Shown piece after piece: positions 30,855 through 53,068 of a stretch of DNA of 64,000 nt (position 1 is its first letter; each line of letters begins with the position of its first letter). The translations under genes and the position numbers were made by a program. This DNA comes from Lachnospiraceae bacterium. GTDB taxonomy: Bacteria > Bacillota > Clostridia > Lachnospirales > Lachnospiraceae. The stretch is taken from NCBI GenBank assembly GCA_017503735.1, contig JAFVSN010000024.1:1-64000 (forward strand), read 5' to 3'. A model generated the notes under the pieces. That model had not been told where the DNA came from and made no database searches. It saw only the letters and a list, made by a program, of their open reading frames with translations.

Positions 30855-30880
30855 AAAGGACCGCCCAAAGGCGATCCTTT
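30855..30880 (-). promoter_or_regulatory. Stem-loop in the rqcP leader
   Basis: AAAGGATCGCC-TTTG-GGCGGTCCTTT pairs fully only as minus-strand RNA, because one position is a G-U pair there and a C-A mismatch on the plus strand. No T run follows, so it looks like an RNA structure or a former terminator from the HU side rather than an active terminator. Confidence 0.45.
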
Positions 30881-31006
30881 ATCAGTTCTTAATAACGTAA
30901 CGTAAGTGAAAATTTAGGTACAAAATCCTTTATCCTCACAAACCCTTATCGTCACTACCTTCTTTGAGTTTTGTACGCTTTTTGAAAACGTACATTATTC
31001 TGTTTA

Positions 31007-31042
31007 CGTACAAAATAATCCTAAGGGGTTTTGTACGTTTTT
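31007..31042. repeat. Left attachment-like site
   Basis: CGTACAAAA and TTTTGTACG are perfect 9-bp inverted arms around a 13-bp centre (31007-31037), the layout of a tyrosine-recombinase core site. Further TTTTGTACG-type words occur at 30918 (inverted), 30969, 30989 (inverted, partial). The stretch 30832-31312 contains no gene. Confidence 0.6.
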
Positions 31043-35485: not shown

Positions 35486-37813
35486 CTATCTGGTACTATA
35501 CTTCAATCCTTCCTTCTTCGCATATTTGTGCGCATAGGAATTTTCCGTTACATAAAGCACCAGTTCTTCATTATCCCTGTCAAACGGATCCAGTTCCGGC
35601 ATCCCTCCTCCAGGTACGCTATCCTGTATCGTCCTCACGCTTTTCGGAAGGATAATTGCTTTCAGATTATCACACTCTCTGAAGGAATAAGCCGCAAGCA
35701 GCTCCACACCTTCCGGAAGATGAATCTCTGTCAGACTGCTGCATCCAAAGAATGCGAAAATTCCGATTCGCCATATGCTCTTCGGTAACACAACTTCCTT
35801 CAACGACGAACAGTTCGAGAACATATCATCTTCAACAAGAATGACTCCCTCACCGATTACTGCTTTCTCAAGATAACTACACTGCCAAAACACACCGCTA
35901 TTCAGCGTTGTAACACTTCCCGGTACTTCAATACTTTTCAGGCCGCAGGAATAAAAAGCTTCAATTCCCAAATACTTCAGCGTTTTCGGTAACAGTATGC
36001 TTCCTAAGGCCTTACAATTTTTAAATGCTCTGTGTCCGATATACGTTAAAGACTCAGACATCTCTACCTTACTCAGATTGGTACACCCATCGAAGGCACT
36101 CTCCTGAATTTCAATCAAACTATTTGGACAGGTTACACTTTTCAGATTCGTATTTCCTTTACACGCATCCTTTCCGATTCCCTTTGCACCATCTGGGATT
36201 ACCAGATGCTCTACATTGTCAGCTACTGCAAGGACATAATTACTGACAATAACCATATCCGTTTTTTCTTTTTGTTTTTTTAGCCACAACGTTCCTTCAA
36301 ATGCTCCTGCACCTATCTCGGACGACTCACCGTTAAATATTATGTCCTCCAGATTCTCACATTCGAAAAAGGCCAAACGACCAATTTCTTTTATTCCTTC
36401 CGGAATCGTAACCTTTTTTAAATTCTTACATCTTTTGAATGCTTCCGGACCTATTTCGGTAGTTTTATCCGATAAAACCACTTCTGTAAGACTTTCGCAA
36501 CCCGAAAATGCCGAATACATTTTTTCCACTTCGATTACAACCCTAAGATTATTACAACCGTCAAATATACCCGACCCGATTTCTTCCACTCCCGCCGGTA
36601 TCGTAATCTCTCTCAGACTGCTACAGCCCTCAAAAGCCTCCATATCAATCCGCTTTAATCCTTCCTGCAATTCAATGGTTTCTAACCCACTGCATCCGGA
36701 AAAGGCCCCTCTCTCTATTACTTTCACCGAACTAGGTATACTTATCTCTTTCAAACCGGTACAACCGGAAAATGCATTTGCTCCAATCTCTTCTATTCCC
36801 TCCGGAAGTTCTATCTTTTCCAAGCTTGTGCAACCGAAAAACGCACCTTCTATATACCTTACTCCTCCCGGAATTACAACCTCCTTCAAACCGGTACAAC
36901 CGGAAAACGTATCCGTTAAATTTGTCAAATCCTTTGGCAATTTAACATATTCCAAGTTTGTGCAACCCGAAAATGTACTATTAAGATAGCGAATGTTATC
37001 CGGAAGTATTATTTCCGTCAAACCGGTATCGTTCGCATACGCCTTTCCCAAATGCACCCAACCTTTCAGATACACAACTTCCTTTAAATTCGTACACGCG
37101 CTAAAAGCGTCGCCCGTAATATAATCCACTTCCTCCGGAATAACAATACTTTCCAGACTTGTATTAACCTTAAACTTATCGAATTTAATCTCTCTTACAA
37201 CCTCACCGTTAATTGTCCCCGGAATCACCAAATGTTTCTCTGTTCCGGTATAACCTGTAATTACAACACACCTGTTTTCCCCGATGGAACCAGGCATCGG
37301 AGGGTTATAACGCAGCCCTTCCGGAATTGGTGCCTCCGTCAGTTTCGGAGTTGCCGTAGGTTTTGGCGTTGCAGTCGGCTTTGGGGTTGCGGTCGGGGCC
37401 AAAGTCGCCGTTGGAACCGGAGTATTTGTCGGAGCCTCCGTAGGTATTGCCGTTGCAGTCGGTTCGGGGATCGCGGTCGGGGCCAAAGTTACGGTCGGCT
37501 CTGGGGTTAAAATTATTTCCGGTGTAACAGTTGCTTCCGGCGTTGGGGTTGCCTCCGGTACTTCGGTCATTTTCGGTGCTTCCGTTGGCTCCGGCATCGC
37601 AGTCTCTTCCGGTATATTTGTCATCTCCGGAGCTTCCGTCGGAGTCACTTCCTCCGTCGGTTTTGCTGCCTCGGTTGCTTCCGGAGCTATTGTAATCGTA
37701 GCTGTCGGCTCTGTTGTCGGCGTATTTACCGGTACATTGGTTGGTGTACTGCCTTGGCAACCGGCAAATATAAGGGTAGTTATTGCTATCCATATGCTTA
37801 GTTTCTTTTTCAT
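35486..37813 (-). CDS. BspA-type leucine-rich repeat lipoprotein
   Basis: The 775-residue surface protein has a lipoprotein signal peptide with lipobox IFAGC (Cys at about residue 19), then a Pro/Thr/Glu-rich spacer (about 22-165) built from PTATP, PEPTE and TEAP-like repeats that would span the cell wall, and from about 200 to 745 some twenty LRR_5 repeats of about 23 residues (pattern L-x2-I-x-IP-x2-V-x2-IG-x2-AF-x-GC-x2-L). BspA-like repeats mediate adhesion to proteins or other cells in host-associated bacteria; the target here is unknown. AAGGAG precedes the ATG. It is the third of three consecutive lipoprotein genes. Confidence 0.88.
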   Translation of the reverse strand: MKKKLSIWIAITTLIFAGCQGSTPTNVPVNTPTTEPTATITIAPEATEAAKPTEEVTPTEAPEMTNIPEETAMPEPTEAPKMTEVPEATPTPEATVTPEIILTPEPTVTLAPTAIPEPTATAIPTEAPTNTPVPTATLAPTATPKPTATPKPTATPKLTEAPIPEGLRYNPPMPGSIGENRCVVITGYTGTEKHLVIPGTINGEVVREIKFDKFKVNTSLESIVIPEEVDYITGDAFSACTNLKEVVYLKGWVHLGKAYANDTGLTEIILPDNIRYLNSTFSGCTNLEYVKLPKDLTNLTDTFSGCTGLKEVVIPGGVRYIEGAFFGCTSLEKIELPEGIEEIGANAFSGCTGLKEISIPSSVKVIERGAFSGCSGLETIELQEGLKRIDMEAFEGCSSLREITIPAGVEEIGSGIFDGCNNLRVVIEVEKMYSAFSGCESLTEVVLSDKTTEIGPEAFKRCKNLKKVTIPEGIKEIGRLAFFECENLEDIIFNGESSEIGAGAFEGTLWLKKQKEKTDMVIVSNYVLAVADNVEHLVIPDGAKGIGKDACKGNTNLKSVTCPNSLIEIQESAFDGCTNLSKVEMSESLTYIGHRAFKNCKALGSILLPKTLKYLGIEAFYSCGLKSIEVPGSVTTLNSGVFWQCSYLEKAVIGEGVILVEDDMFSNCSSLKEVVLPKSIWRIGIFAFFGCSSLTEIHLPEGVELLAAYSFRECDNLKAIILPKSVRTIQDSVPGGGMPELDPFDRDNEELVLYVTENSYAHKYAKKEGLKYSTR
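37300..37740 (-). repeat. Imperfect tandem repeats coding for the Pro/Thr spacer
   Basis: Multiple copies of short units such as GTTGCAGTCGGCTTTGG occur in a row. They encode PTATPKP-type repeats and are prone to length change by slippage. Confidence 0.75.
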
Positions 37814-39678: not shown

Positions 39679-41004
39679 TTATTCCGCTACATAATTTAAC
39701 CCGTTTTCTTTCATGTAGTTTTCTGCATAGGAGCCTTTTTTGCAGTAAACAGTAATATCTTTATTTGTTTTAAACGCATCGACGCCGATTGCCGTTACGC
39801 TTGCCGGAACAGTAATGCTTTTTAATTTATAGCACTGTCCAAACGCTCTATCACCGAGTTCTGTTACACTCACCGGCAAAACAATCTCTTCCAAGGAAGC
39901 ACAAATATCAAATGCAGAAGTCCCAATGGTTCTTATTGTTTTCGGTAACTTAACTTCCGTCATCATTTTAAATCCGTAGAACGCATAATCACCGATGCCT
40001 ACCACTGTTTTTCCATATAATGTTTCCGGAACCTCGTATGAAGTTAATGAACTGTTATCTTTTACCCAGCCGCCAAACAAAATCTCATTGTCACCAACGA
40101 TGCTATACGCAAACTCCGGCAGTTCGCTTGTAATATTCGGACAATTTACGAACGCGCCCGCTCCCAGATATAATAAATTTGTCGGAAGAGTAACGTTCTT
40201 CAAATTTTTGCAAAGATAGAAAGCTTTTTCACCTATATGTACGACGCTTTCCGGAATCATAATATCCTCTAAGTTTTGGCAACCATCAAATGCTTGTTTC
40301 CCTATTATTTCCAGTCCTTCCGGCAACATTATGTCAACCAAATTACAGCCATAAAAAGCCATCTCATCTATACTTTTTAATCCTTCCGGAAGATCAACAT
40401 TTATCAATCCTGAACGATAAAATGCGCAGTAACCCACACTTTGTAGACTTTTCGGTAACGTAATACTTTCTAATGCCGTACATCTACCAAAGGCATGATT
40501 ACCGATTTGAGTCACACTGTCAGGAAGTACAACTTTCTTCAAGTTTTCACACCCATCAAATTCGCCATTCACCATGCTCTCTAAAGGATTTAACAGTGTC
40601 ACCTCTTCCAAACCGATACATCCAGAAAAAGAGCTGCCGATTTCCCACACATCCTCCGACACAACAACTTTCTTTAAAGTCTCTCGCGTCAATCCATTCT
40701 CTGCAAGCACTTCATCCAAAACATCCCTGGTTATCCTATTGCTTCCCGACAAAACAAGCGTATCCCCGTCCATCACACCTATGATCGGTGTTCTCTGTCT
40801 TACAGGCGCTTCCGTCGGCTCCGGAATCTTCGTTACCTCTTCTTTAGGTACTTCCGGTGCTTCTGTCACAGTTACATTCTGGGGCTCTGTTCCTGCCAGA
40901 GTGTCCGTCACAGTTTTATCCGGCGCAATCGTTTCCTTGTCTTCCTGACATCCCGCAAATGCTAATACCATAGCTAACAGAACGAACAAAATTGATTTCT
41001 TCAT
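39679..41004 (-). CDS. LRR_5 (BspA-type) lipoprotein
   Basis: A 441-residue lipoprotein: signal peptide with lipobox AFAGC, a spacer of about 60 residues (PEPTEAPV), then about a dozen LRR_5 repeats (for example SFSGCIGLEEVTL, AFGRCTALESITLPKSL) from about 95 to 430. The ATG at 41004 is used because the lipoprotein signal begins there and AAGGA precedes it; 43 codons of open frame upstream are not credible. It is divergent from the XRE regulator at 41248. Probable surface adhesin or protein-binding protein. Confidence 0.86.
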   Translation of the reverse strand: MKKSILFVLLAMVLAFAGCQEDKETIAPDKTVTDTLAGTEPQNVTVTEAPEVPKEEVTKIPEPTEAPVRQRTPIIGVMDGDTLVLSGSNRITRDVLDEVLAENGLTRETLKKVVVSEDVWEIGSSFSGCIGLEEVTLLNPLESMVNGEFDGCENLKKVVLPDSVTQIGNHAFGRCTALESITLPKSLQSVGYCAFYRSGLINVDLPEGLKSIDEMAFYGCNLVDIMLPEGLEIIGKQAFDGCQNLEDIMIPESVVHIGEKAFYLCKNLKNVTLPTNLLYLGAGAFVNCPNITSELPEFAYSIVGDNEILFGGWVKDNSSLTSYEVPETLYGKTVVGIGDYAFYGFKMMTEVKLPKTIRTIGTSAFDICASLEEIVLPVSVTELGDRAFGQCYKLKSITVPASVTAIGVDAFKTNKDITVYCKKGSYAENYMKENGLNYVAE

Positions 41005-41164
41005 ATGTTTTCTTTTCCTTTCTCTATAATTTCCTTGTCCTATCCAATATACGTTTCCTATAACCGTATGTTTTAACCCGCCTATAAGTAATTTATCGCC
41101 TCCGTTCTTTCCTTCTCCTGCTTGTTCTTCCAAGTAACATGCTGAACGTGTTTATTTTGGGCAT

Positions 41165-41640: not shown

Positions 41641-41763
41641 TTTATAAGACGCTGTAGAAACTGAATTTCCAAATTTTTCTTTTCTCATAAAATGAATGTC
41701 ACGCGGACAGAGGACATAATAAGCTTACCCATTATTACGCCTAATGACAAGGAGGGCTTATTT

Positions 41764-43167
41764 ATGAGCGAAGAATCACAAGAACTACGCCAGTACGAAA
41801 TCAGGTGCGCCGAGCAACAGAATCTTATTGAACTGCTCGAAAAAGAAGTTAAGCGGCTAAACATTTCTCTGCGGCAGGCACAAGCACACAACCAGAGGCT
41901 GACGGCGATGTTGCTGGGACAACCGCCTTTCCCGGAATCTTCGAAGCAATCAGCGTCCGACACTAAAAAGGAGGATGAAGAAAACAAAGAACCAAATGCT
42001 ACACCCAATACCGCAGAAAACGCGTCATCAGAAGACAATGACTCCTGCAAGGGACAGGATGACAGCGAAGAACCCTTTGACTTCGACAAATACCCTTTTC
42101 CAGAAGACAATTCTTCGGAATTTAAGAGCTACAAAGAACAGATTGCCTATGAATGTCAAGAGTTTCTTAAAAAGTACACGTTCCCAGCTTTCTACAACGA
42201 GATTTCAAAAGATATTATTGGCCAGGAAGATGGACTTAAGAAAATGCTCGCCGTCATCTATAACTACATACACACACTGGCTCTTGGTGAGAGACCTGAA
42301 AAATGTACCGCGGTTATTTTAACGGCCCCTAGCGGAAATGGCAAGAGTGCTTTATATAAGAGCCTTTCCACATTCCTCAAAACAGCAATCCCTTGCCTCG
42401 TGTGTAGTCGAAAGGATGCAAGTAGGCTTGTTCCGTCGGGTTACAGAGGTCAAACTGTCAATAGTGTTTTAGCTGATTTTGGGCCTAACGAAAAGCATCG
42501 CAATGAACAGAAATTCGGCATCCTATGGCTGGACGAGTTCGACAAAATCCGCTTCAATAATGACGGCGGCCCGCAGGTGGAAAACCAGCTTCTCACTTAC
42601 ATGGACGGCATAACAGAACACTATGGCGATGTTACATTTGACACGCAATATCTCTTCTGGATTGCCTCAGGAAGCTTCAACGAAACACGTCAAAAGAAGA
42701 AGCAGCAGACAGCCAAGATCATCGGGTTCGTTGGTTCCGAAAAGAACTATGATGCGTTCGACGTGATTACAAGAGAAGATATGTTGCAGACATTTTCCCA
42801 CGAAACGATTGGCCGGTTCACCCTGATTGTATCTTTTAACCGGCTTTCTGAAGAAGCAGTCACGTGTGTCATCATAAAAATGCTGGAAGATATTTACAAA
42901 GATCTGCATTTGGATACATTGATAAGTAAGGAATATATTGATGCCCTAGTAAAGGAGGCAAATTCGGAGTTTGGTTGCCGAGACCTTTACAACACTCTTT
43001 ACGAAACTTGCCTTAAAGCGTACATCGAAATATTGCAAGGTGGTGTGTATAGTATCGACGACAACCCGACGGTCATCATCGATGGTCCGAATGACTATAT
43101 CATTATTGATGAAGACATAGCAGACCAAATCCGGTACGATGACAATAACGGCGGTAAATACATGTAA
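41764..43167 (+). CDS. ClpX-like AAA+ ATPase with coiled-coil/acidic N-terminus
   Basis: The 467-residue protein begins with a coiled coil (about 5-50), a disordered acidic linker rich in E, D, N and S (about 55-118), then an AAA+ module resembling ClpX: IIGQEDGLKKMLAVIYNY (151-168), Walker A APSGNGKS (188-195, Lys 194), Walker B ILWLDEFDK (D257, E258), a sensor-like FWIASGSFNET and a C-terminal small domain. The ClpX zinc-binding domain is replaced by the coiled-coil segment, so partner choice must differ. AAGGAGG precedes the ATG at 41764. Possible roles are remodelling of the recombinase complex or a defence unfoldase; neither is shown. It is flanked by terminators, so it is a single-gene unit. 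Confidence 0.8.
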   Translation: MSEESQELRQYEIRCAEQQNLIELLEKEVKRLNISLRQAQAHNQRLTAMLLGQPPFPESSKQSASDTKKEDEENKEPNATPNTAENASSEDNDSCKGQDDSEEPFDFDKYPFPEDNSSEFKSYKEQIAYECQEFLKKYTFPAFYNEISKDIIGQEDGLKKMLAVIYNYIHTLALGERPEKCTAVILTAPSGNGKSALYKSLSTFLKTAIPCLVCSRKDASRLVPSGYRGQTVNSVLADFGPNEKHRNEQKFGILWLDEFDKIRFNNDGGPQVENQLLTYMDGITEHYGDVTFDTQYLFWIASGSFNETRQKKKQQTAKIIGFVGSEKNYDAFDVITREDMLQTFSHETIGRFTLIVSFNRLSEEAVTCVIIKMLEDIYKDLHLDTLISKEYIDALVKEANSEFGCRDLYNTLYETCLKAYIEILQGGVYSIDDNPTVIIDGPNDYIIIDEDIADQIRYDDNNGGKYM

Positions 43168-44075: not shown

Positions 44076-44447
44076 ATGCCTGAGCGAGACGAAGAACAAA
44101 TCAATGATATTTACATAGAATTAGGAGAACGTGTAAAAATAGCCCGGAAGTCGTTTCGTAAGCCGGGCGAGACACCGACTGCAGAGAATATAGGTTTAAC
44201 CCAAGCGGAATTAGCTGCACTCTCCAAACATACACAATCATATATTTCCGAAATCGAATCCGGAAAAGCTCGTATTACAGTAGATGTATTGAAGGATTTA
44301 TGTGACACTCTTGCGGTTACCCCCAATCAGCTTTTGAACTACATAGAACCACCACTTACTGCAGAAATGGCAATAGCCTTACAACGAATGAGTGATGGAG
44401 ATAGAAATAAACTACTGCAGTTATATGACCTGATGAAACAGAAATAA
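44076..44447 (+). CDS. XRE-family transcriptional regulator
   Basis: A 123-residue helix-turn-helix protein: GLTQAELAALSKHTQSYISE (recognition region at about 40-60) and a C-terminal helix with a leucine-rich DRNKLLQLYDLMKQK. GGGAGG is upstream of the ATG. It is followed by its own terminator and then by the recombinase operon, so it may regulate excision or transfer of the element. Confidence 0.82.
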   Translation: MPERDEEQINDIYIELGERVKIARKSFRKPGETPTAENIGLTQAELAALSKHTQSYISEIESGKARITVDVLKDLCDTLAVTPNQLLNYIEPPLTAEMAIALQRMSDGDRNKLLQLYDLMKQK

Positions 44448-44477: not shown

Positions 44478-44674
44478 ACCCCTTGCAATATCGCCAACTC
44501 CGATATTTTAATTCTGTTCTATTATATATAGCAATAATTCTACTGTTTTATTCGCAAAAGGGCTGGTTTTACCCTTTTTTTAACATAATCTCAACCTTAC
44601 CGTTTCACACGATACCGGTGCAACCAAGATTGCACGAAGCAACACAGACGTATTTACTTAGAAAGGAAACAGCT

Positions 44675-45940
44675 ATGAGATTTGTTGTTTACAACCATAC
44701 CCTTATAACTCTTGACGGTACCCGAATCAACAGAAAGTTCATTGCACTGAAACTGGATGACGGTACGCTCCGATTCACAAATCTACATAAGTACATCTTT
44801 CCCAAAAAACGTAATGTAAGACCCATGAGCGCAGACAGTAATAACCGCGTGTACTTCATCGTGCAGCTGTTAAACTACGCATTCTTTACCTGTGGCATAC
44901 ATGCCCTGTCCGAGCTTACAGTTGAAATGGTATCCGACTTTCTGAACGATTACGGAAACTGCGAACTTCCGGATGACGACGATGACACCTCTCGTTCCAA
45001 GCAGACGGTAGAAAAGTGTATCTGTTCCATCATGGACTTTCTGGAAAATCTTCTGGCTGCATTTAAAGGTCGTATGTCTTTTAAAAGAGAGGCGCTGTAT
45101 CAGGAAATACAGGTCCGAAACAAACGCGGACAAGTTATAAAGAAGATTGTCCCGGTATTCCCTGTACTGTATAAGGATAACGGAGCTGTAAGACGTGTCT
45201 ACCGGGATATGCCAAACGAAGCTTTTAAGGTTATCTTCGGACATATCTTCGAAAACCACAAAGAGATTCTTATGCTGGTTGCACTCTCCGCATTTGCCGG
45301 TCTCAGACCTTCCGAAGCCTGTAATGTCCGTAGAGAAGATAGTCGTCTTGGTCCAGGGCTGCTGTTTGAAATCGTTGCCGGAGAAACAACCGGCATAAAG
45401 ATTGACCTTAATCACGAATATGTTCTCCGGAGCGACCTCAAACCGGTCGGATGCATCAAAAAGGAACGCATGCAAAAGGTTCCGGATATTTTTCTGGATG
45501 CCTTTGTGGTATGCTACAACGAATACATGAAGTACATAGAGGGCCGCTGGTATGAGGCTGATTACGGGCCATTATCCATTAACCGACAATGTAAGGCCTA
45601 TACGTATCCGAGCTACCGGCAACAGTTCCAAAAGATAATCAAAAACGAGATTGTTCCTCTTCTTCTTGGGAGTAATGATCCGGAACTCGTTATATATGGA
45701 CATACCCTAATGGAGCATAACATCTCGCCGCACATTTTTAGGCACTGGTATACGGTACAACTGGTGTTGTCCGGTATAAACGACCCAGGTACCTTAATGA
45801 AGCTCCGCGGTGACACTTCTCCGGAAAGCTCCCTGGTTTACTTGCAAGATAAGGGTGACCTTGAACGGGAATACAGAAAAGTAAGCAACGAAGCATTCAA
45901 TTACCTTAAATGGGCAGCAAGGAGGTTGTCAGATGACTGA
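44675..45940 (+). CDS. Tyrosine recombinase (TnpA/RitA-like)
   Basis: First enzyme of the recombination module, 421 residues. The catalytic set of tyrosine recombinases is visible: R211 in FAGLRPSEAC, H353-x2-R356-H357 in SPHIFRHWYT, and the nucleophile Y389 in SSLVYLQDK, with an N-terminal SAM-like core-binding domain before residue 180. The ATG at 44675 has GAAAGGA at good spacing; the 64 codons of open frame before it are hydrophobic and unlike this family. It overlaps the next gene by eight bases. Probably carries out strand exchange between the 22-bp repeats at the element ends. Confidence 0.88.
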   Translation: MRFVVYNHTLITLDGTRINRKFIALKLDDGTLRFTNLHKYIFPKKRNVRPMSADSNNRVYFIVQLLNYAFFTCGIHALSELTVEMVSDFLNDYGNCELPDDDDDTSRSKQTVEKCICSIMDFLENLLAAFKGRMSFKREALYQEIQVRNKRGQVIKKIVPVFPVLYKDNGAVRRVYRDMPNEAFKVIFGHIFENHKEILMLVALSAFAGLRPSEACNVRREDSRLGPGLLFEIVAGETTGIKIDLNHEYVLRSDLKPVGCIKKERMQKVPDIFLDAFVVCYNEYMKYIEGRWYEADYGPLSINRQCKAYTYPSYRQQFQKIIKNEIVPLLLGSNDPELVIYGHTLMEHNISPHIFRHWYTVQLVLSGINDPGTLMKLRGDTSPESSLVYLQDKGDLEREYRKVSNEAFNYLKWAARRLSDD

Positions 45941-47777
45941 TTTACGGACCTTTATCACACATATGACCGAGAACCTGCCTCCGTGTAAAAAAAACGAATT
46001 TAAGGCAATTTCAGCTTTCCTAATTAACAATAATTGGGTCGGATGCACGCCGACTATCGAAAACGGCATTCCGATGTTATCTCCGGAACAGATTCAGATT
46101 CTATCTGAACCAATACGCCGGTTCCTAACCGAAGAAAATACCGATGCGGAGCTCCTTAAAAGGCTGGCCGAAAAGTTTCCGGAAACAGCCAAGCTCCTCT
46201 TCCGGTTCTACCGGGAACTGAGAACAGATGAAGACAGCCGGGTCTACCTTACCGATTTTTTACTTTTCCGGCTTACCAAAGACCTGTTTATGTACAACGA
46301 CACTGATATACAGGAACTTCTTAAGATTGCCACAGATGATATGTTGAAGCAGCACGGAGACACATTAGTCTTCTTCCTTGCCTGGATGCGGACCAAGATT
46401 AAAACGAAGTATTACAAGGATTACATCATGGAGAAGCGTTATACCATGGACGTACAAAACGAAGCCTATGATTTTGACGAGTACCTTGAGCTGGTATACA
46501 AACTCTTTAACTCCGATTATATCGAAAAGAACGACATGTATCTGCGTGCTGCAGAGTCTAAGAACTACACAGATACCTGGCTTTATTTGTCCATGCATTT
46601 TGTCTGTTCCCTGCGTTATACAGACCTGGAGCGGATTTACCGGCCGATATTACCATTTTCTCCGGAAGAATGCATTGAGCGTATTAAGGAGGACACTTTT
46701 TCAGAGAATGACGCGCGCCTTGTATTGCTCTCTGTTATTCAGAGAATGTGCACCTTGCCTTTGACTCCGCACAAAAATGAGGACAAACACAATATTAACT
46801 CCGTGAAGCTTTGTATTCCTTCGTCCTGCGAAATGCATTTCGGAAAATTGTTTGCCCTTGCGGAGGCACACCGACAGATGCAAGGCGATTATGACAGACC
46901 GCTTATCAAAAAGATTTCTACCTATGACCAGATTAAGCGGTACATGGGTGGTGATATCGGTGACCTGTTCCTTGAGAACGACTTCCTTTCAAGGTCCGCC
47001 ACAAAGTCATACCTGCAGAACATCTTCATGGTCGGAAACGAAATGTCGGAGGGCGAAGACGGGTTACAGGCAAAGGGCTATCTTCTTGCATCCTTTGCCC
47101 GGAGCCACAAGGGTTCTTACGGTAACTTTGCTTCTACGACCTTCGAATACTTGAAGGATGCGAAGTTAAACGGACTCACTCCGGAATTTGTTGCCTTTGA
47201 GCTTTTTGAGCGGGGTGTCCTGTCGTTTATTTCATCCGAGTTACTAAACATGGTTACCGGTCAACAATATGCAAAGCTGACCGTTAAAAACCAGACAGAA
47301 CTGGTAAAAGAGCTTGGTCTAAGTCCTATGGAAATCGAAACAGTTGTGTCTACCGTAGATGCTGCCAGAAAACAGTCCTACGAACTTGTCCGGGCCATTT
47401 CCGGAACCCCACAGGATTCGCTTGAAATCCTCCACCGGATTGGTTCCGGTCAGGCGTTTTCCAAGCAGCCGGAGTGCATGTGCCTGCTCACTGCACTCGG
47501 CAAAGAATGCCCGTACGCTGAAAAGAGACAATGTGTCGGGTGCGAACATGAAATTGGCACCAAGTCTACCATGTTCCTTCTAATCAGCGAATACAACCGG
47601 ATGATGAATCTATACCAGGATACAGACAGCAAACTCGAGAAGAAGAAATACAAGAAGCTTATTACAGAAGTTATTGTCCCACACATGGACGAAATGCTTA
47701 CCTGCATTAGGGAAACTTACGGTGAAGAGGTATTTCATCAATACGAACAGTTAATAAAGGAGAATACAAGCCTATGA
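45933..47777 (+). CDS. Recombinase-module protein 2 (RitB/TnpB-like, degenerate)
   Basis: A 614-residue protein between two tyrosine recombinases, with overlaps on both sides (8 and 4 bases). A box-I-like Arg (R228 in VCSLRYTDLERI) is present, but I cannot find the HxxR box or a tyrosine in the right place; ARSHKGSYGNF near 395 is the best candidate. Near the C-terminus ECPYAEKRQCVGCE (about 520-535) gives four Cys suited to zinc. It is likely an accessory or architectural member of the recombination complex, derived from an integrase. AAGGAGG precedes the ATG. Confidence 0.7.
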   Translation: MTDLRTFITHMTENLPPCKKNEFKAISAFLINNNWVGCTPTIENGIPMLSPEQIQILSEPIRRFLTEENTDAELLKRLAEKFPETAKLLFRFYRELRTDEDSRVYLTDFLLFRLTKDLFMYNDTDIQELLKIATDDMLKQHGDTLVFFLAWMRTKIKTKYYKDYIMEKRYTMDVQNEAYDFDEYLELVYKLFNSDYIEKNDMYLRAAESKNYTDTWLYLSMHFVCSLRYTDLERIYRPILPFSPEECIERIKEDTFSENDARLVLLSVIQRMCTLPLTPHKNEDKHNINSVKLCIPSSCEMHFGKLFALAEAHRQMQGDYDRPLIKKISTYDQIKRYMGGDIGDLFLENDFLSRSATKSYLQNIFMVGNEMSEGEDGLQAKGYLLASFARSHKGSYGNFASTTFEYLKDAKLNGLTPEFVAFELFERGVLSFISSELLNMVTGQQYAKLTVKNQTELVKELGLSPMEIETVVSTVDAARKQSYELVRAISGTPQDSLEILHRIGSGQAFSKQPECMCLLTALGKECPYAEKRQCVGCEHEIGTKSTMFLLISEYNRMMNLYQDTDSKLEKKKYKKLITEVIVPHMDEMLTCIRETYGEEVFHQYEQLIKENTSL

Positions 47778-49423
47778 ATGTAACCACCGCCGAAAAACTG
47801 GTTTCTTCGAAAACCACATATATATTCCTTGACAAAGACTCCGTAGAAGATGCAAAAACCAAGTTTCTGGAGTTCCAAAAATTAAATATCATCAAGCCGG
47901 AGTCCACCTTTGATGGCTCCGTCTGGCAAACCACGGACCAGTATTCCAACATCGGTCTCCATTTCGAGTTTGATGAAAAGTCTTACAAGAAACACTACGA
48001 AGCCTTGTTTGAGATGAGTTTCCGTGATTTTCTTGCCATGGTAAAGACCTATCTTATTTCCCTTCTCGGAAAGAATGTTTTGGTAACTCTCGCTGGTGTG
48101 TTACTCGACATCCGGCATATCATTAACACTGCACCGCGCATCGTAACATCCGGCGATTTTACATTTGATATGCCTTGGCTTTGTATGGATTTCTTCACGT
48201 CCTTTTCCTTAAATATGGATGACAGATTCGACGACCTTATGGATGCGCTTGAAGGCTGTATGGAGAAGAAAATCATGCGCCGTCACCAGAACCAGCGTGA
48301 TCTTGCTACTTTTGATACATATTTCCTTTTTGATGAGCTTATAAAGCGGTACTGGCAGGAGGACATTCCGGAGGAAGATCGGTTATTCTACTACCCTCTT
48401 TATCTCTGGTGGCAGATAACAGCCGTCATGCCGTTACGGCCGCGTGAGTTTATCCTGACCGAACGAAACTGCTTATCCTGCAAGGATGGGGAGTATCACC
48501 TGCGGCTCCGGCGTACACACTTAAAAGGTGGACAGTCTGCCATTGCATATACGCTCGACGGCGACTACGACATTTTCACCTGCCGGATTCCGGAAAAACT
48601 CGCAAACGAGATACAGACATATATTAACCTTACCGAAAAATATGCGGCTACCGACCTTGACACCCTCTTTGTCACGGATGTCCATTACAAGAAGTGGGGC
48701 ATGCGCAAGAACCGGAATAGTCGGTATCTTAGCTACACAAACATGAATACCATCCTCCGTTATTTCTATGAGGAAATCATTCGGGATAGGTACGGGTACA
48801 GCATTGTTTACGAACATGACAGCAGCCATCTTGACGACGGTGAAATCTGCTACATACATCTCGGGGACACGCGGCATATTGCTCTGATTAACATCATGCA
48901 GGAAGGCGGCACCCCGGTAACCGCTATGTTACTTGCCGGGCACACCAATACGGAAATGGCATCACATTATTACTCCAACATTACCCAGATGATAGAGTGT
49001 AAGACATACCGGCAGCACCGGCGGTTAATCAGCGGCGACAGCAAGTTTTCCATAAGCAACGTATCCTACGTCCCTTCCACCAAAGCATTTACCACACTTA
49101 GCGACAACGGCAAGTGTTATTCCGAAGCTTACAGAAATGGTGAAATCACTGATTGTCTCTGTTCCGTAGGCGAAAATGGAGAAATCGGGTACTGTCCGAA
49201 GTGCATTCACTACCGGCGTGACGGCATCTCCTACTTTGGATCCGACGACATTTACAAGCGTAACATTGAGGCGGATTGCAAGATGCTTACCGAAGCTATC
49301 GAGCTTGTGAGAAAAGAAAAAGGCAGTCCGGAAGAGATTGGCGAAGTATTGCGCCGACTTTATTCCAGCTCCAAATCATATCAGGCGTATTTACTTAACA
49401 AACTTAACGAAAAGGAGGAGTAA
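47774..49423 (+). CDS. Tyrosine recombinase (RitC/TnpB-like)
   Basis: A 549-residue integrase. The box I Arg is R222 (PLRPREFILTE), then TRH with R367 and H368, H390 in LLAGHTNTEMASHYY, and the nucleophile Y399 or Y400. The usual first His of HxxR is replaced (G364), a tolerated variation in some families. A C-terminal zinc-like cluster (CLCSVGENGEIGYCPKC, about 475-491) resembles that of protein 2. It overlaps the previous gene by four bases and AAAGGAG precedes the ATG. It is probably the second active recombinase of the trio. Confidence 0.84.
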   Translation: MNVTTAEKLVSSKTTYIFLDKDSVEDAKTKFLEFQKLNIIKPESTFDGSVWQTTDQYSNIGLHFEFDEKSYKKHYEALFEMSFRDFLAMVKTYLISLLGKNVLVTLAGVLLDIRHIINTAPRIVTSGDFTFDMPWLCMDFFTSFSLNMDDRFDDLMDALEGCMEKKIMRRHQNQRDLATFDTYFLFDELIKRYWQEDIPEEDRLFYYPLYLWWQITAVMPLRPREFILTERNCLSCKDGEYHLRLRRTHLKGGQSAIAYTLDGDYDIFTCRIPEKLANEIQTYINLTEKYAATDLDTLFVTDVHYKKWGMRKNRNSRYLSYTNMNTILRYFYEEIIRDRYGYSIVYEHDSSHLDDGEICYIHLGDTRHIALINIMQEGGTPVTAMLLAGHTNTEMASHYYSNITQMIECKTYRQHRRLISGDSKFSISNVSYVPSTKAFTTLSDNGKCYSEAYRNGEITDCLCSVGENGEIGYCPKCIHYRRDGISYFGSDDIYKRNIEADCKMLTEAIELVRKEKGSPEEIGEVLRRLYSSSKSYQAYLLNKLNEKEE

Positions 49424-49427
49424 CACT

Positions 49428-50186
49428 ATGGCGAGACCAAAACTTATCGAGGACGCCAAGCTTTTAGAGCTTATTTACCAGTTTTTTATTCACGAGTGCA
49501 ACGGACGGCCGTCTAAGCTTAAAAAGCCCGCCATTGCCCAATATGTGTCCTCTCACGGCTATCCGGGATATGCTGTGGAATCACTCCGGCGGAATCAGAT
49601 TGCCTGCGACTACATAGAATCCCTTACTGTTCAACAGGAAGAAGAAACACTCATCACCCTTTCTTCGTACAAAACCCTTGATGTGGATGCTTTTCTGACT
49701 ACACACAGGGACAAGAAAGTCCTTAAAACCGCCCTGATACAGCTTGACTGTTACTACAAGTCCATTGCCGATAGCAGTGTTGAGGCTATAAAGAAGTACT
49801 CCCATCAGGAAGACAAAATCAAAAGTCTGCGGGAACAACTCGCGGACTCCAAAGCCAGTATAGAAGAACTTACCAGTACGGTTAAAGAGCTCCGGCAGCA
49901 GCTTCGACAGCTCAGGGCTGAAGCTGATTTATGGAAAAGTGTTGTTGAGGATTATGTGTATCCGGATATCTGCAATGAACTGTTGGCAGCCGACAAAGAG
50001 CTTAAGAACATCGACACAATTATCGCTAGTGCCAAGCTGGAGAAAAAAGTGATTACCTTCCAGTCCCGGATTGAACGAAAGCCACAGAACATAGCTGATA
50101 TTCCGGCAAAGACGGAACCGCCTGTGAATACCGGAAGTTCAATTACCGGTAGCTTATTAAGCAGGTTTGAGGAGGACGATGTATGA
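49428..50186 (+). CDS. Coiled-coil DNA-binding-like protein (TnpC/DUF6262-like)
   Basis: A 252-residue protein in the position of Tn554 tnpC. The first 70 residues (MARPKLIEDAKLLELIYQFF, KLKKPAIAQYVSSHGYPGYA) look like a helix-turn-helix; a long coiled coil follows (about 110-175, SLREQLADSKASIEELTSTV, KELRQQLRQLRAEADLW) and a low-complexity tail. The ATG at 49428 with AAGGAGG is favoured over an earlier start inside the previous gene. In Tn554 TnpC influences orientation and frequency of transposition. It overlaps the zinc-finger gene by four bases. Confidence 0.75.
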   Translation: MARPKLIEDAKLLELIYQFFIHECNGRPSKLKKPAIAQYVSSHGYPGYAVESLRRNQIACDYIESLTVQQEEETLITLSSYKTLDVDAFLTTHRDKKVLKTALIQLDCYYKSIADSSVEAIKKYSHQEDKIKSLREQLADSKASIEELTSTVKELRQQLRQLRAEADLWKSVVEDYVYPDICNELLAADKELKNIDTIIASAKLEKKVITFQSRIERKPQNIADIPAKTEPPVNTGSSITGSLLSRFEEDDV

Positions 50187-52624
50187 GTAAGAACTCTTTA
50201 AAGATTGCAGACGTACCATTCCTTATGGCACAGTGGTCTTCAAAGAATACCGAGGATCCGGCCAAAATTGCAGCCACCTCATCAAAGGTATGCTTTTGGG
50301 AGTGCCATATATGCGGATATGACTGGAGCGTATCTGCCAAAGCGCGCTTTGCATCCGGCGGCAAGTGCCCGTGTCATGAAACCAACAAGGTCATTGTACC
50401 TGGGATTAATGATGTTCTTACCTTAATGCCGGAACTTAAGGCATATTACGACACTGAGAAGAATGAGGCCGAGGGCATCGACATTTCCCATGAAGGTTTT
50501 GACTCCAGTGTAGTGGTCAACTGGAAATGCCCGGAGTGCGGACGTTGCTGGAAGTCCACCATTAGGTCCAGAACCAGCAAGAAGGATGGCATACGTGTTA
50601 TTATTCCCTGTCCTCATTACAACACCGTAAAACGCAAATCCGAGGATATTCCAACGGTTGCACAGGTGCCTGCGATGATGCGACTTTGGGATATTTCCAG
50701 GAATCCGGATGCAGCCACCGTCAAGTCAAACTCTCCGGAGTATGCATTCTGGTTGTGTCCGGAGTGTGGTTATGACTGGCGTACAACTGTTGTTTCATTG
50801 GCAAGAGGTGGCTGTAAGTGTCCGTGTTGCGAGTCAAATACGGCCATAAAATCTGGCATTAACGACCTGTTTACCTTGATTCCGGAAGCCAAAAGATTCT
50901 ATGATTTCGAGAAAAATGCCGGTGTCGACATTTACAGCATAGGCATCAGGAATGGCGAACCGCTATGGTGGACTTGTCCGGATTGCGGTAACAGTTGGAA
51001 ATCCCCCATTGCTGCTCGTGTGGAAGGTAAGAAAGGCAGTTACAGGTTCCGAGGTTGTCAGCAATGTTACTTTACAAATAAAGACCGCATCACTCCAGCT
51101 TCCTCAAATAAGATTGTTGTTAAGTATTGGGATTACGAAAGAAATAAAGGAATCGACATTAACCTGACATCCTTATACAGTGAAGAAACCGTCCATTGGC
51201 GTTGCAAGGACTGCGACCTTGAGTGGGACGGCACAATAAAAGGCATGATTACTTCAAAGGGGTGTCCTTACTGCAATAATCCGGAAGGTTACTTTGACCA
51301 CTATCCTTATCTTATGGAGTCCTTATATAAGATTTTTGTACCGGCGGAAAATCCGCATATTGACCTGCCGAAAACCAAGCTTTTTTCAAAAACGGAGGTT
51401 TTCTTTCACTGCCATAATTGTGGGCATGAATGGAGTGGTCCGTTGGGTAACCGTATTAGCAAAGATAACGGAACATACCGCGTTCTTGGGTGCCCAAAGT
51501 GCGACAACAACAGCCTACGCCGCATTACGTACGCCGAACAATATCCGGACCTTGCTGCCATGTACAACGCAAGAGTCAGTGGACGACCTCTCTCCTCGAT
51601 TACAAGCTACGAGTGCAATACTATAAAACTCGCATGGGACTGTCCAATCTGCAACGAAACTTTTGTATCAAGGGTACGGTCAATGATTACTGCGCGCGAT
51701 ACTTCTAGCAAAGGATGTCCTTACTGTTCCCATACGCTATTACGCAAGGGTGAGAGTTTTGGAGACCTGCATCCGGAATTACTCAGGGAATACTCTACCG
51801 AGAACGTTCAGGATCCTTTTAAGGTGTTTCCTTGCTGCGAAGATGATGTCATTTGGCAATGCCTTAATAATCCGGAACATATATGGCATGCCTCTTTTTC
51901 CGTACGACACAGTGGCTACGGAAACTGCCCAATCTGTAACAGAACTCAACGTATTAAAGGCGTCAATACCTTTGCAGATGTGTATCCGGAATATCTGGAT
52001 ATGTACTCCGACAACAATGAGCGCAAGCCGGATGACATCTTTTACAACTCTGTACTTTGGTTTTGGTGGAACTGTCGTACCTGCCATGGAGAGTTCGGAG
52101 CCTACATAAAGGATGTGGTTTCCGGAGAAGAATGTTGTCCTTATTGTAAAGGAATCAGGGCACTTCCGGGCGTCAACTCCCTACAAGCGCTGTATCCGGA
52201 TATTGCTGCCCGGTACTCCTTGAAAAATCCTCATACGGCGGACGAGGTATTACCTACGTCTACATCATATCATCTATGGGATTGTCCAGATTGTGGCGGT
52301 GAATACAATGCATTAATGGCAGATGTAGTATCCGGAGAGCATACATGTCCTTATTGCAATGACCGAATGGTATTGCCGGGCTTCAATGATTTTGCTACCA
52401 GGCATCCGGATCTCATGGGAGAATACGATTACATTACCAACTACATATTCACCGACAGCGATAAGATAAGTGAGCGCAGCTTTGAACCCCTTTGGTGGAT
52501 ATGTTCCAGGAATCCGGAACACCGGTATCTTATATCACCTCGAAAACGACTCTGGTTCCAAATGCGGCACAGGGAGCCGTGTCCGTATTGTAAAGGACGT
52601 CGTTACAAAAAACTTCATTTTTAG
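50183..52624 (+). CDS. 813-residue protein with eleven treble-clef zinc-finger modules
   Basis: The protein is built entirely from modules of about 65-75 residues of the DUF4379/treble-clef (PF14311-type) family: a W-x-C-x2-C-x4-W half and a C-P-x-C half. I count eleven, starting with ECHICGYDWS, KCPECGRCWK, LCPECGYDWR, TCPDCGNSWK, RCKDCDLEWD, HCHNCGHEWS, DCPICNETFV, then a variant QCLNNPEHIWH, NCRTCHGEFG, DCPDCGGEYN and a last variant ICSRNPEHRYL. Between the halves lies a repeated motif of the type P-x-L-x2-Y (for example MPELKAYYD, HPELLREYS, YPDIAARYS). No nuclease domain is attached, although in other genomes such fingers are joined to Vsr-like nucleases. Its start overlaps the tnpC-like stop, so it belongs to the recombination operon; DNA target recognition or a scaffold role is inferred. 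Confidence 0.85.
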   Translation: MSKNSLKIADVPFLMAQWSSKNTEDPAKIAATSSKVCFWECHICGYDWSVSAKARFASGGKCPCHETNKVIVPGINDVLTLMPELKAYYDTEKNEAEGIDISHEGFDSSVVVNWKCPECGRCWKSTIRSRTSKKDGIRVIIPCPHYNTVKRKSEDIPTVAQVPAMMRLWDISRNPDAATVKSNSPEYAFWLCPECGYDWRTTVVSLARGGCKCPCCESNTAIKSGINDLFTLIPEAKRFYDFEKNAGVDIYSIGIRNGEPLWWTCPDCGNSWKSPIAARVEGKKGSYRFRGCQQCYFTNKDRITPASSNKIVVKYWDYERNKGIDINLTSLYSEETVHWRCKDCDLEWDGTIKGMITSKGCPYCNNPEGYFDHYPYLMESLYKIFVPAENPHIDLPKTKLFSKTEVFFHCHNCGHEWSGPLGNRISKDNGTYRVLGCPKCDNNSLRRITYAEQYPDLAAMYNARVSGRPLSSITSYECNTIKLAWDCPICNETFVSRVRSMITARDTSSKGCPYCSHTLLRKGESFGDLHPELLREYSTENVQDPFKVFPCCEDDVIWQCLNNPEHIWHASFSVRHSGYGNCPICNRTQRIKGVNTFADVYPEYLDMYSDNNERKPDDIFYNSVLWFWWNCRTCHGEFGAYIKDVVSGEECCPYCKGIRALPGVNSLQALYPDIAARYSLKNPHTADEVLPTSTSYHLWDCPDCGGEYNALMADVVSGEHTCPYCNDRMVLPGFNDFATRHPDLMGEYDYITNYIFTDSDKISERSFEPLWWICSRNPEHRYLISPRKRLWFQMRHREPCPYCKGRRYKKLHF

Positions 52625-52723: not shown

Positions 52724-52745
52724 CTAAAGGGTTTTGTACGTTTTT
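52724..52745. repeat. Right attachment-like site
   Basis: A 22-bp direct repeat of 31021-31042 with one mismatch (A for G at its fifth base), sharing GGGTTTTGTACGTTTTT. It lies 48 bases from the HU stop and 66 bases after the recombination-operon terminator. Confidence 0.68.
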
Positions 52746-52792
52746 GCTCAAAACTCGCAAAAATTTTTTTTCAGTTACAGCAAAAACAAAAC

Positions 52793-53068
52793 TTATGCGT
52801 TTACGGTATCCTTTAATGCCTTACCAGCCTTGAACTTCGGAGCCTTGGATGCCGGAATGGTAATGGTCTGCTTGGTCTGCGGATTTCTACCGGTTCTTGC
52901 CGGTCTAGCGGATACTTCGAAGGTACCGAATCCAACTAACTGAACCTTTTCACCCTTCTTTAACTCATCAGTTACTACGCTAACGAAAGCTGCTAATGCC
53001 TTCTCGGAATCCTTCTTGGATAATCCTGCGTTTTCTGCGATTGCTGCTACTAACTCTGTCTTGTTCAT
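52793..53068 (-). CDS. hup: DNA-binding protein HU
   Basis: Nucleoid-associated histone-like protein. The 91-residue protein is full length: [20 protein letters not shown], then [40 protein letters not shown] and [19 protein letters not shown] precedes the ATG. In other Clostridia it is directly upstream of rqcP; here the integrated element starts just past its stop. Confidence 0.96.

Follow-up and report, generated by a model that had tools for sequence, protein, structure and literature searches.

A modular zinc-finger array that probably acts as a ruler for the insertion point of its mobile element

Protein target selectors beside conserved genes are already known from Tn7 and Tsy. Tn7 TnsD binds the conserved 3′ coding end of glmS and directs insertion next to that gene, and Tn554 has a single target, radC, three proteins being needed for transposition in its family. 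In the present paper we describe an integrated element of 21.9 kb (positions 30902–52778, given without strand, with ends accurate to a few bp) in 64000 nucleotides of Lachnospiraceae bacterium DNA (assembly GCA_017503735.1, contig JAFVSN010000024.1, positions 1–64000, hereafter named the window). A five-gene operon, named R1, R2, R3, C4 and finger array in order, forms the right-end module of the element, with cargo to its left. Comparison with related loci suggests that this is a mobile element in which a modular zinc-finger ruler probably sets the insertion point. Unlike this element, Tn7 uses another transposase and its TnsD has no repeat array. The accessible sections of the report on GInt islands (ginABCD; PMC5385486) describe a layout that our element resembles, in which one end has an operon of three genes of integrase type with a fourth, small gene, cargo follows, the other end is AT-rich and insertion is site-specific, sometimes at gene 3′ ends, but they mention no fifth finger gene, and the word ‘zinc’ is absent from them. 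Strand-biased circularizing elements are similar in having intA, tfp and intB plus a fourth gene, and R2 may correspond to tfp, the middle gene, in being recombinase-like, although in the accessible part of their description (PMC10214605) they are limited to Gammaproteobacteria and no finger gene is named. Tsy is likewise a tyrosine recombinase element with a zinc-finger protein, TnsF, as target selector and a conserved coding sequence, comM, as target; TnsF differs in having few fingers fused to a recombinase-like domain, and the available text, which also describes glmS homing, reports no variable array or distance rule (PMC10293859).

The layout of our element is of the GInt/Tn554 type, that is, an integrated island (30902–52778) in which the operon occupies the right end and cargo lies to its left, and genes one to four resemble the three recombinase-type genes plus helper known from GInts and Tn554. 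Weak homologues of R3 and R2 are present in three loci that we call Tn554-like (L021, L022 and L029), near which BLAST with the window array revealed no finger array. Relative to the Gamma-mobile-trio, R1 gave a sub-threshold match to NF040693 GmtY (15 bits, far below the cut-off of 340). The fifth gene (50183–52624, + strand) encodes a protein of 813 residues in which 11 stretches matched PF14311 (DUF4379, ‘Probable Treble clef zinc finger domain’) with an E-value of 2.9e-89 and 293.6 bits against a curated cut-off of 24.5, and a purpose-built HMM (hidden Markov model) likewise counted 11 fingers. The last of them, finger 11 (WWIC..NPEHRY..; 52427–52591 by HMM bounds, + strand), is named here the cap finger and would be the junction-side end of the array. 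The sequence-only reading had described an 11-finger protein lacking a nuclease, which was borne out in that the Pfam matches of the array contained no nuclease family; nor was a TniQ family found among the Pfam matches of the array or of C4. An AlphaFold2 model of the array had a pLDDT (predicted local distance difference test) of 80.5 and a pTM (predicted template modelling score) of 0.31, indicating that single fingers were modelled and their mutual arrangement was not. Our searches of open-licence papers yielded no description of DUF4379 arrays associated with recombinases or of a distance set by finger count.

The sequence-only reading had also suggested comparing finger number with the insertion site, and this comparison gave our main result, in two target classes. 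The first is dif in Streptococcus, where the elements end upstream of dif beside xerS. R3 was detected in 20 of 284 Streptococcus genomes, giving 22 operons, and the region upstream of xerS was taken from 40 of 59 sampled genomes and from all further R3-positive genomes of the 284. When measured from the GTTA of the element end to the TCTTTC of dif, the distance was 21–23 bp for arrays of eight fingers, 31 bp for nine, 40–42 bp for ten and 52 bp for 11, and all 17 operons lying directly at dif obeyed these steps. Regression over eight array lineages gave 9.82±0.28 bp per finger (r=0.9975), a fit equalled by 36 of 40320 permutations of these eight related lineages. The other five operons were located elsewhere (L063 and L203), at a contig end (L040/L205) or behind the end of another element, that end being 21 bp from dif (L047/L209 and L049). 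Eight further ends without a countable array were found 41, 58, 30, 40, 41, 41, 23 and 23 bp from dif. Elements pile up at this site: two or more ends stand in a row at dif in L125, L135/L162, L047 and L049, with the innermost at 21 or 41 bp. In L152, the DNA between the element end and dif appeared by eye to be homologous to element-free sites; therefore the shift lies in host DNA.

The second class has its target at the 3′ end of the xer gene, with distances counted from the tyrosine codon. Arrays of 19 fingers were found at 71 and 73 bp and arrays of 20 fingers at 83 and 85 bp (L036, L037, L038 and L043). Two of these loci, L036 and L037 from lactobacilli, are 95–97% identical in R1–R3 and differ in the array by one penultimate finger (19 compared with 20), and their junctions lie 10 bp apart at the xer 3′ end (73 and 83 bp respectively). 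A second near-isogenic pair, L044 and L048, is 95–98% identical in R1–C4 and 68% identical in the arrays, which have ten and 11 fingers with distances of 41 and 52 bp respectively. The synonymous divergence (dS) of this pair was 1.10 in the array and 0.09–0.26 in R1–C4, and thus the array was exchanged. The ratio of non-synonymous to synonymous divergence (dN/dS) of the array was 0.03–0.55 in nine pairs, and the array is under purifying selection.

The position of the extra fingers was examined by alignment. All 22 dif-class pairs with different finger numbers had their best single gap at the cap or beside it, within the last two positions, and in all four xer-class pairs it fell within the last three positions. 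Fingers 1–6 kept their identity by index across arrays of eight to 11 fingers. The regression reaches zero distance at approximately 5.7 fingers; therefore fingers 1–6 would span dif and approximately 60 bp towards xerS, so that the conserved fingers may fit the conserved DNA and the remaining fingers may measure to the junction. In L033, fingers 11–13 are nearly identical neighbours before the cap, a recent tandem expansion.

These comparisons lead us to propose that the recombinase module of this integrative element is Tn554/GInt-like and that a modular zinc-finger array selects its target. The array would be colinear with the target DNA and have its N-terminal fingers on a host sequence that is conserved, namely the 3′ coding end of the HU gene in the window, dif and the xerS promoter in Streptococcus, or, in lactobacilli, Enterococcus and Anaerosporobacter, the 3′ coding end of xer. 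Each finger of approximately 71 residues would cover approximately 10 bp, equal to one helical turn, and the C-terminal cap finger would lie near the insertion point and position the recombinases there, such that duplication of a finger just before the cap would move the insertion point one turn further out. Comparison shows the constant linkage, the dependence of distance on finger number, the place of the extra fingers, the swapping of the array between near-identical recombinase modules and purifying selection; from it we infer direct DNA binding, base reading by N-terminal fingers and contact of the cap or C4 with the recombinases. The sequence-only reading had suggested that the finger protein reads a long DNA or RNA target and may direct integration. 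The positional part of that proposal is strongly supported, as finger number predicts the junction in two target classes; sequence-specific reading by each finger is a further possibility.

That most of the sequence under the ruler is also read by it is, in our judgement, about as likely as not. In the HU class both the window and L034 have 11 fingers behind HU, and the distance from stop codon to element end, determined by eye, was 15 bp in the window, 18 bp in L034 and 16 bp in L122. In favour of base reading are the index-specific fingers and the likeness of the HU flanks of the window and L034, which aligned with a score of 43 compared with at most 13 in 300 shuffles, HU being conserved anyway. 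Finger similarity was rejected as proof of a common target, as the mean identity of the window array with that of L034 was close to that with L033, and L035 is located at another gene. Analysis of specificity positions revealed index-specific residues in the majority of the variable columns and yielded no small contact set.

A number of observations weigh against the ruler, or against its reading of sequence. The array of L035 aligns to that of the window about as well as does the array of L034 (30–52% identity over fingers 1–9), and its flank is another gene, unlike HU. No dif-like sequence was found in register at the off-site copies L063 and L203. The arrays of L084 and L085 are 99% identical, but their target DNA is identical at only 42 of 60 positions, so that bases, if they are read, are read loosely. 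Because the eight lineages of the regression share ancestry, the permutation p-value, uncorrected for descent, is too kind. A degenerate remnant (L136/L163) ends 58 bp from dif, off the observed steps, and the finger count depends on the HMM threshold in L059 (eight or nine) and L204 (nine or ten). Finally, in a Butyrivibrio-type clade, arrays of five, six, eight and nine fingers share one junction within 3 bp, located by eye 10 or 7 bp upstream of the start codon of a gene of an ICE (integrative and conjugative element), the product of which we take to be a Maff2-like protein. This maff2 class rules out finger number as the sole determinant of the junction. For a colinear array whose C-terminus is at the junction, the extra fingers of this class must be N-terminal. 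This was the case in 13 of 21 pairs, and in the other eight the best gap was internal or before the cap, mainly in comparisons with L073, L080 or L082 and by small margins. We thus regard the maff2 class as compatible with a colinear array and do not count it as support.

What remains is loose reading or anchoring by a few fingers. The latter leads to a serious alternative, to which we give somewhat less than an even chance, in which the first few fingers, C4 or a recombinase recognize the site and the other fingers form a non-specific ruler of fixed pitch. Such a spacer would account for the free variation of the DNA under the junction-side fingers, where the eight-finger class alone has nine different sequences of 21–22 bp, for the 18 differences in 60 target positions tolerated by the near-identical arrays of L084 and L085, and for the near-identity of fingers 11–13 in L033. 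However, fingers 1–6 are mutually distinct and conserved by index in eight arrays, which exceeds what a pure spacer would need. The spacer and the sequence-reading ruler differ only in degree.

How closely the array is linked to the recombinases bears on a second alternative. With its own genome counted, the window's R3 had matches in nine of 299 genomes of the same family and in three of 391 genomes drawn from the class. A scan with an R3 alignment identified 61 loci in 84980 species genomes and two in viral contigs, the latter not found with a single R3 sequence as the query, and these together with the window make up the 64 loci compared in the present study. L094 and L095, IMG/VR contigs filed as viral, carry the five-gene module. 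Samples of Lactobacillaceae and Enterococcaceae gave two positives in 397 genomes and one in 105 respectively, of which one Lactobacillaceae genome (G1243, which may belong to the species of L036) was beyond those known. The complete set of five genes is present in 50 of the 64 loci, which come from Streptococcus, Enterococcus, lactobacilli and Clostridia, and the finger gene is present in 60, constantly as the last gene of the module, with one to 20 fingers at strict thresholds. A contig end truncates nine of the 14 incomplete loci (L042, L051, L052, L057, L074, L086, L088, L089 and L090), R1 is missing within the contig in L053 and L055, and L091, L092 and L093 are distant loci, with fingers absent in L091 and L093. 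The array is split over two ORFs (open reading frames) in L039, L046, L057 and L059, and recombinase genes are broken in L043, where R3 has internal stops, and in L059, L083 and L164. The sequence-only reading had named, as evidence against it, finger proteins that mostly occur without recombinases, and in the family as a whole this is what we observed: an array match was present in 48 of 299 same-family genomes, only seven of which also had an R3 match, and R1, R2 and C4 occurred in none of 15 neighbourhoods of other arrays, with a recombinase match in one. Within the lineage to which this recombinase module belongs, however, the array is almost always present (60 of 64 loci).

It is improbable, in our view, that the array is cargo or a defence or anti-defence protein, the distance rule then arising from shared ancestry or from footprints of earlier insertions. 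DUF4379 arrays do occur mostly without the module, tandem ends are common at dif, and two PHROG families named endonuclease, which are phage families, match the array over its finger part. Against such a role stand the constant last place of the array in the module, the shift of 10–11 bp per one finger in each of the two near-isogenic pairs, and the location of the L152 shift in host DNA. Least probable of all is binding to RNA, for example the transcript of the target gene. In its favour, the DUF4379 proteins of solved structure are mitoribosomal and many insertions target the 3′ end of a transcribed gene; against it, the step of approximately 10 bp matches the pitch of B-DNA and the ruler at dif spans upstream DNA that is untranscribed as far as the sequence tells. 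The best PDB matches of the array model were kinetoplastid mitoribosome proteins (6yxx_E2, E-value 7e-12), some of them labelled DUF4379. As the distances are measured in DNA, we infer a DNA rather than an RNA target.

The five genes of the operon were confirmed as one closely packed set, all on the + strand, in which three neighbouring pairs overlap by 8, 4 and 4 bp and the remaining pair is 4 bp apart. The sequence-only reading had seen three recombinases here, of which R1 is upheld by profile matches and R3 by its motif, whereas R2 gave no recombinase match. R1 (44675–45940) is a tyrosine recombinase with weak but consistent matches to recombinases (phrog_1 integrase, 6e-9; XerC-like 4a8e and XerA 5hxy, E-value about 4e-4) and the invariant residues Arg211, His353, Arg356, His357 and Tyr389; its ORF opens at 44483, and homologues start at the ATG at 44675. 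R3 (47774–49423) is a tyrosine recombinase by its R..RH..H..Y motif, with invariant Arg222, GDTRH at 364–368, His390 and Tyr399–Tyr400, and is 24–28% identical to annotated recombinases of two plasmids and to an unannotated stretch of a third. R2 (45933–47777) is a conserved second protein of unproven fold that holds the same operon position in relatives. It gave no recombinase match in Pfam, PHROG or other profile and structure comparisons, and its reading as a recombinase is not supported: its AlphaFold2 model (pLDDT 71.8) returned no Foldseek hits at an E-value of 0.001, XerH appeared only at rank 32 (E-value 7), and profile comparison gave no support either. C4 (49428–50186, starting at a conserved ATG) is a small coiled-coil protein in the position of TnpC/GinD. 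Comparison with the fourth gene of one Tn554-like locus by hhalign gave a probability of 4.7% (E-value 0.0085), and operon position tentatively suggests a likeness to TnpC.

At the left the element ends in GTAAGTGAAAATTTAGGTAC (30902–30921, + strand), a motif that is also the left end of the L122 element, which occupies this site in a different genome of the genus, and at the right in AAAAATTTTTTTTCAGTTAC (52759–52778, + strand); right ends with an A-run, a T-run and GTTA recur among relatives. The end motifs were located, and by eye the ends look like inverted copies (GTAAGTGAAAATTT on the left and TTTTTTTTCAGTTAC on the right). The 22-bp site noted in the sequence-only reading is a real direct repeat, with two matches compared with 0.01 expected, in subterminal copies at 31021–31042 and 52724–52745 (both + strand), and is a candidate recombinase site. 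It lies inside the element, however, the true ends being outside both copies. The HU gene, the proposed target (52793–53068, − strand; Pfam Bac_DNA_binding, 1.8e-37), has its stop codon 15 bp from the right end. A terminator (30855–30881, − strand) now stands on the far side of the element, which is thus flanked by the HU stop codon and the displaced HU terminator: in five of eight same-genus loci (L098–L101 and L103) this terminator directly follows HU. Different sequence follows HU in L097 and L104, and the end of another element in L102; HU and an S4-domain gene are adjacent in same-genus loci without the element. L122 (12083–13635) is a 1553-bp element with one ORF and both end types, at the same site behind HU, and looks as if it had been moved in trans.

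The cargo includes two BspA-type leucine-rich repeat proteins (35486–37813 and 39679–41133, both − strand), a ClpX-like AAA ATPase (41692–43167, + strand) that weakly matches DolB, a defence model (4.6e-8), and a helix-turn-helix protein (44076–44447, + strand) that may be cargo or a control gene; several further cargo proteins had no Pfam match. A cargo-free module of 7.4 kb (6618–13994 in L084 and L085) is 99% identical in two Lachnospiraceae and precedes an ICE pilin-like gene. Other DUF4379 arrays were also observed. The window's own genome contains a second one of 662 residues on contig C46 (L009, 9089–11077), located beside likely defence genes, not recombinases, and carrying an insert that by eye resembles a DUF559/Vsr-type nuclease. 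Very long arrays without the recombinase module, with up to 962 residues per ORF, were found in L226 (5244–10337) and L227 (6010–8844).

If the proposed ruler is correct, DUF4379, a widespread family to which Pfam assigns no known function, would be a modular DNA ruler with approximately 10 bp per module. This would contrast with the repeats of transcription activator-like effectors, which read 1 bp per repeat, and with C2H2 fingers, which read 3 bp per finger. The case for a broader meaning seems to us no stronger than the case against it, namely that long DNA is recognized in a new and general way by tandem treble-clef fingers with one module per helical turn, so that 20 fingers would have a footprint of approximately 200 bp, and that selection re-aims the array by duplicating, losing or swapping fingers, whereby elements measure out and choose sites next to essential genes. 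The ruler predicts that one more finger near the cap would move the insertion one helical turn further, and since natural allele pairs one finger apart exist, the question is directly testable. It would also explain how these elements insert without harm next to HU, xer, dif and further conserved genes.

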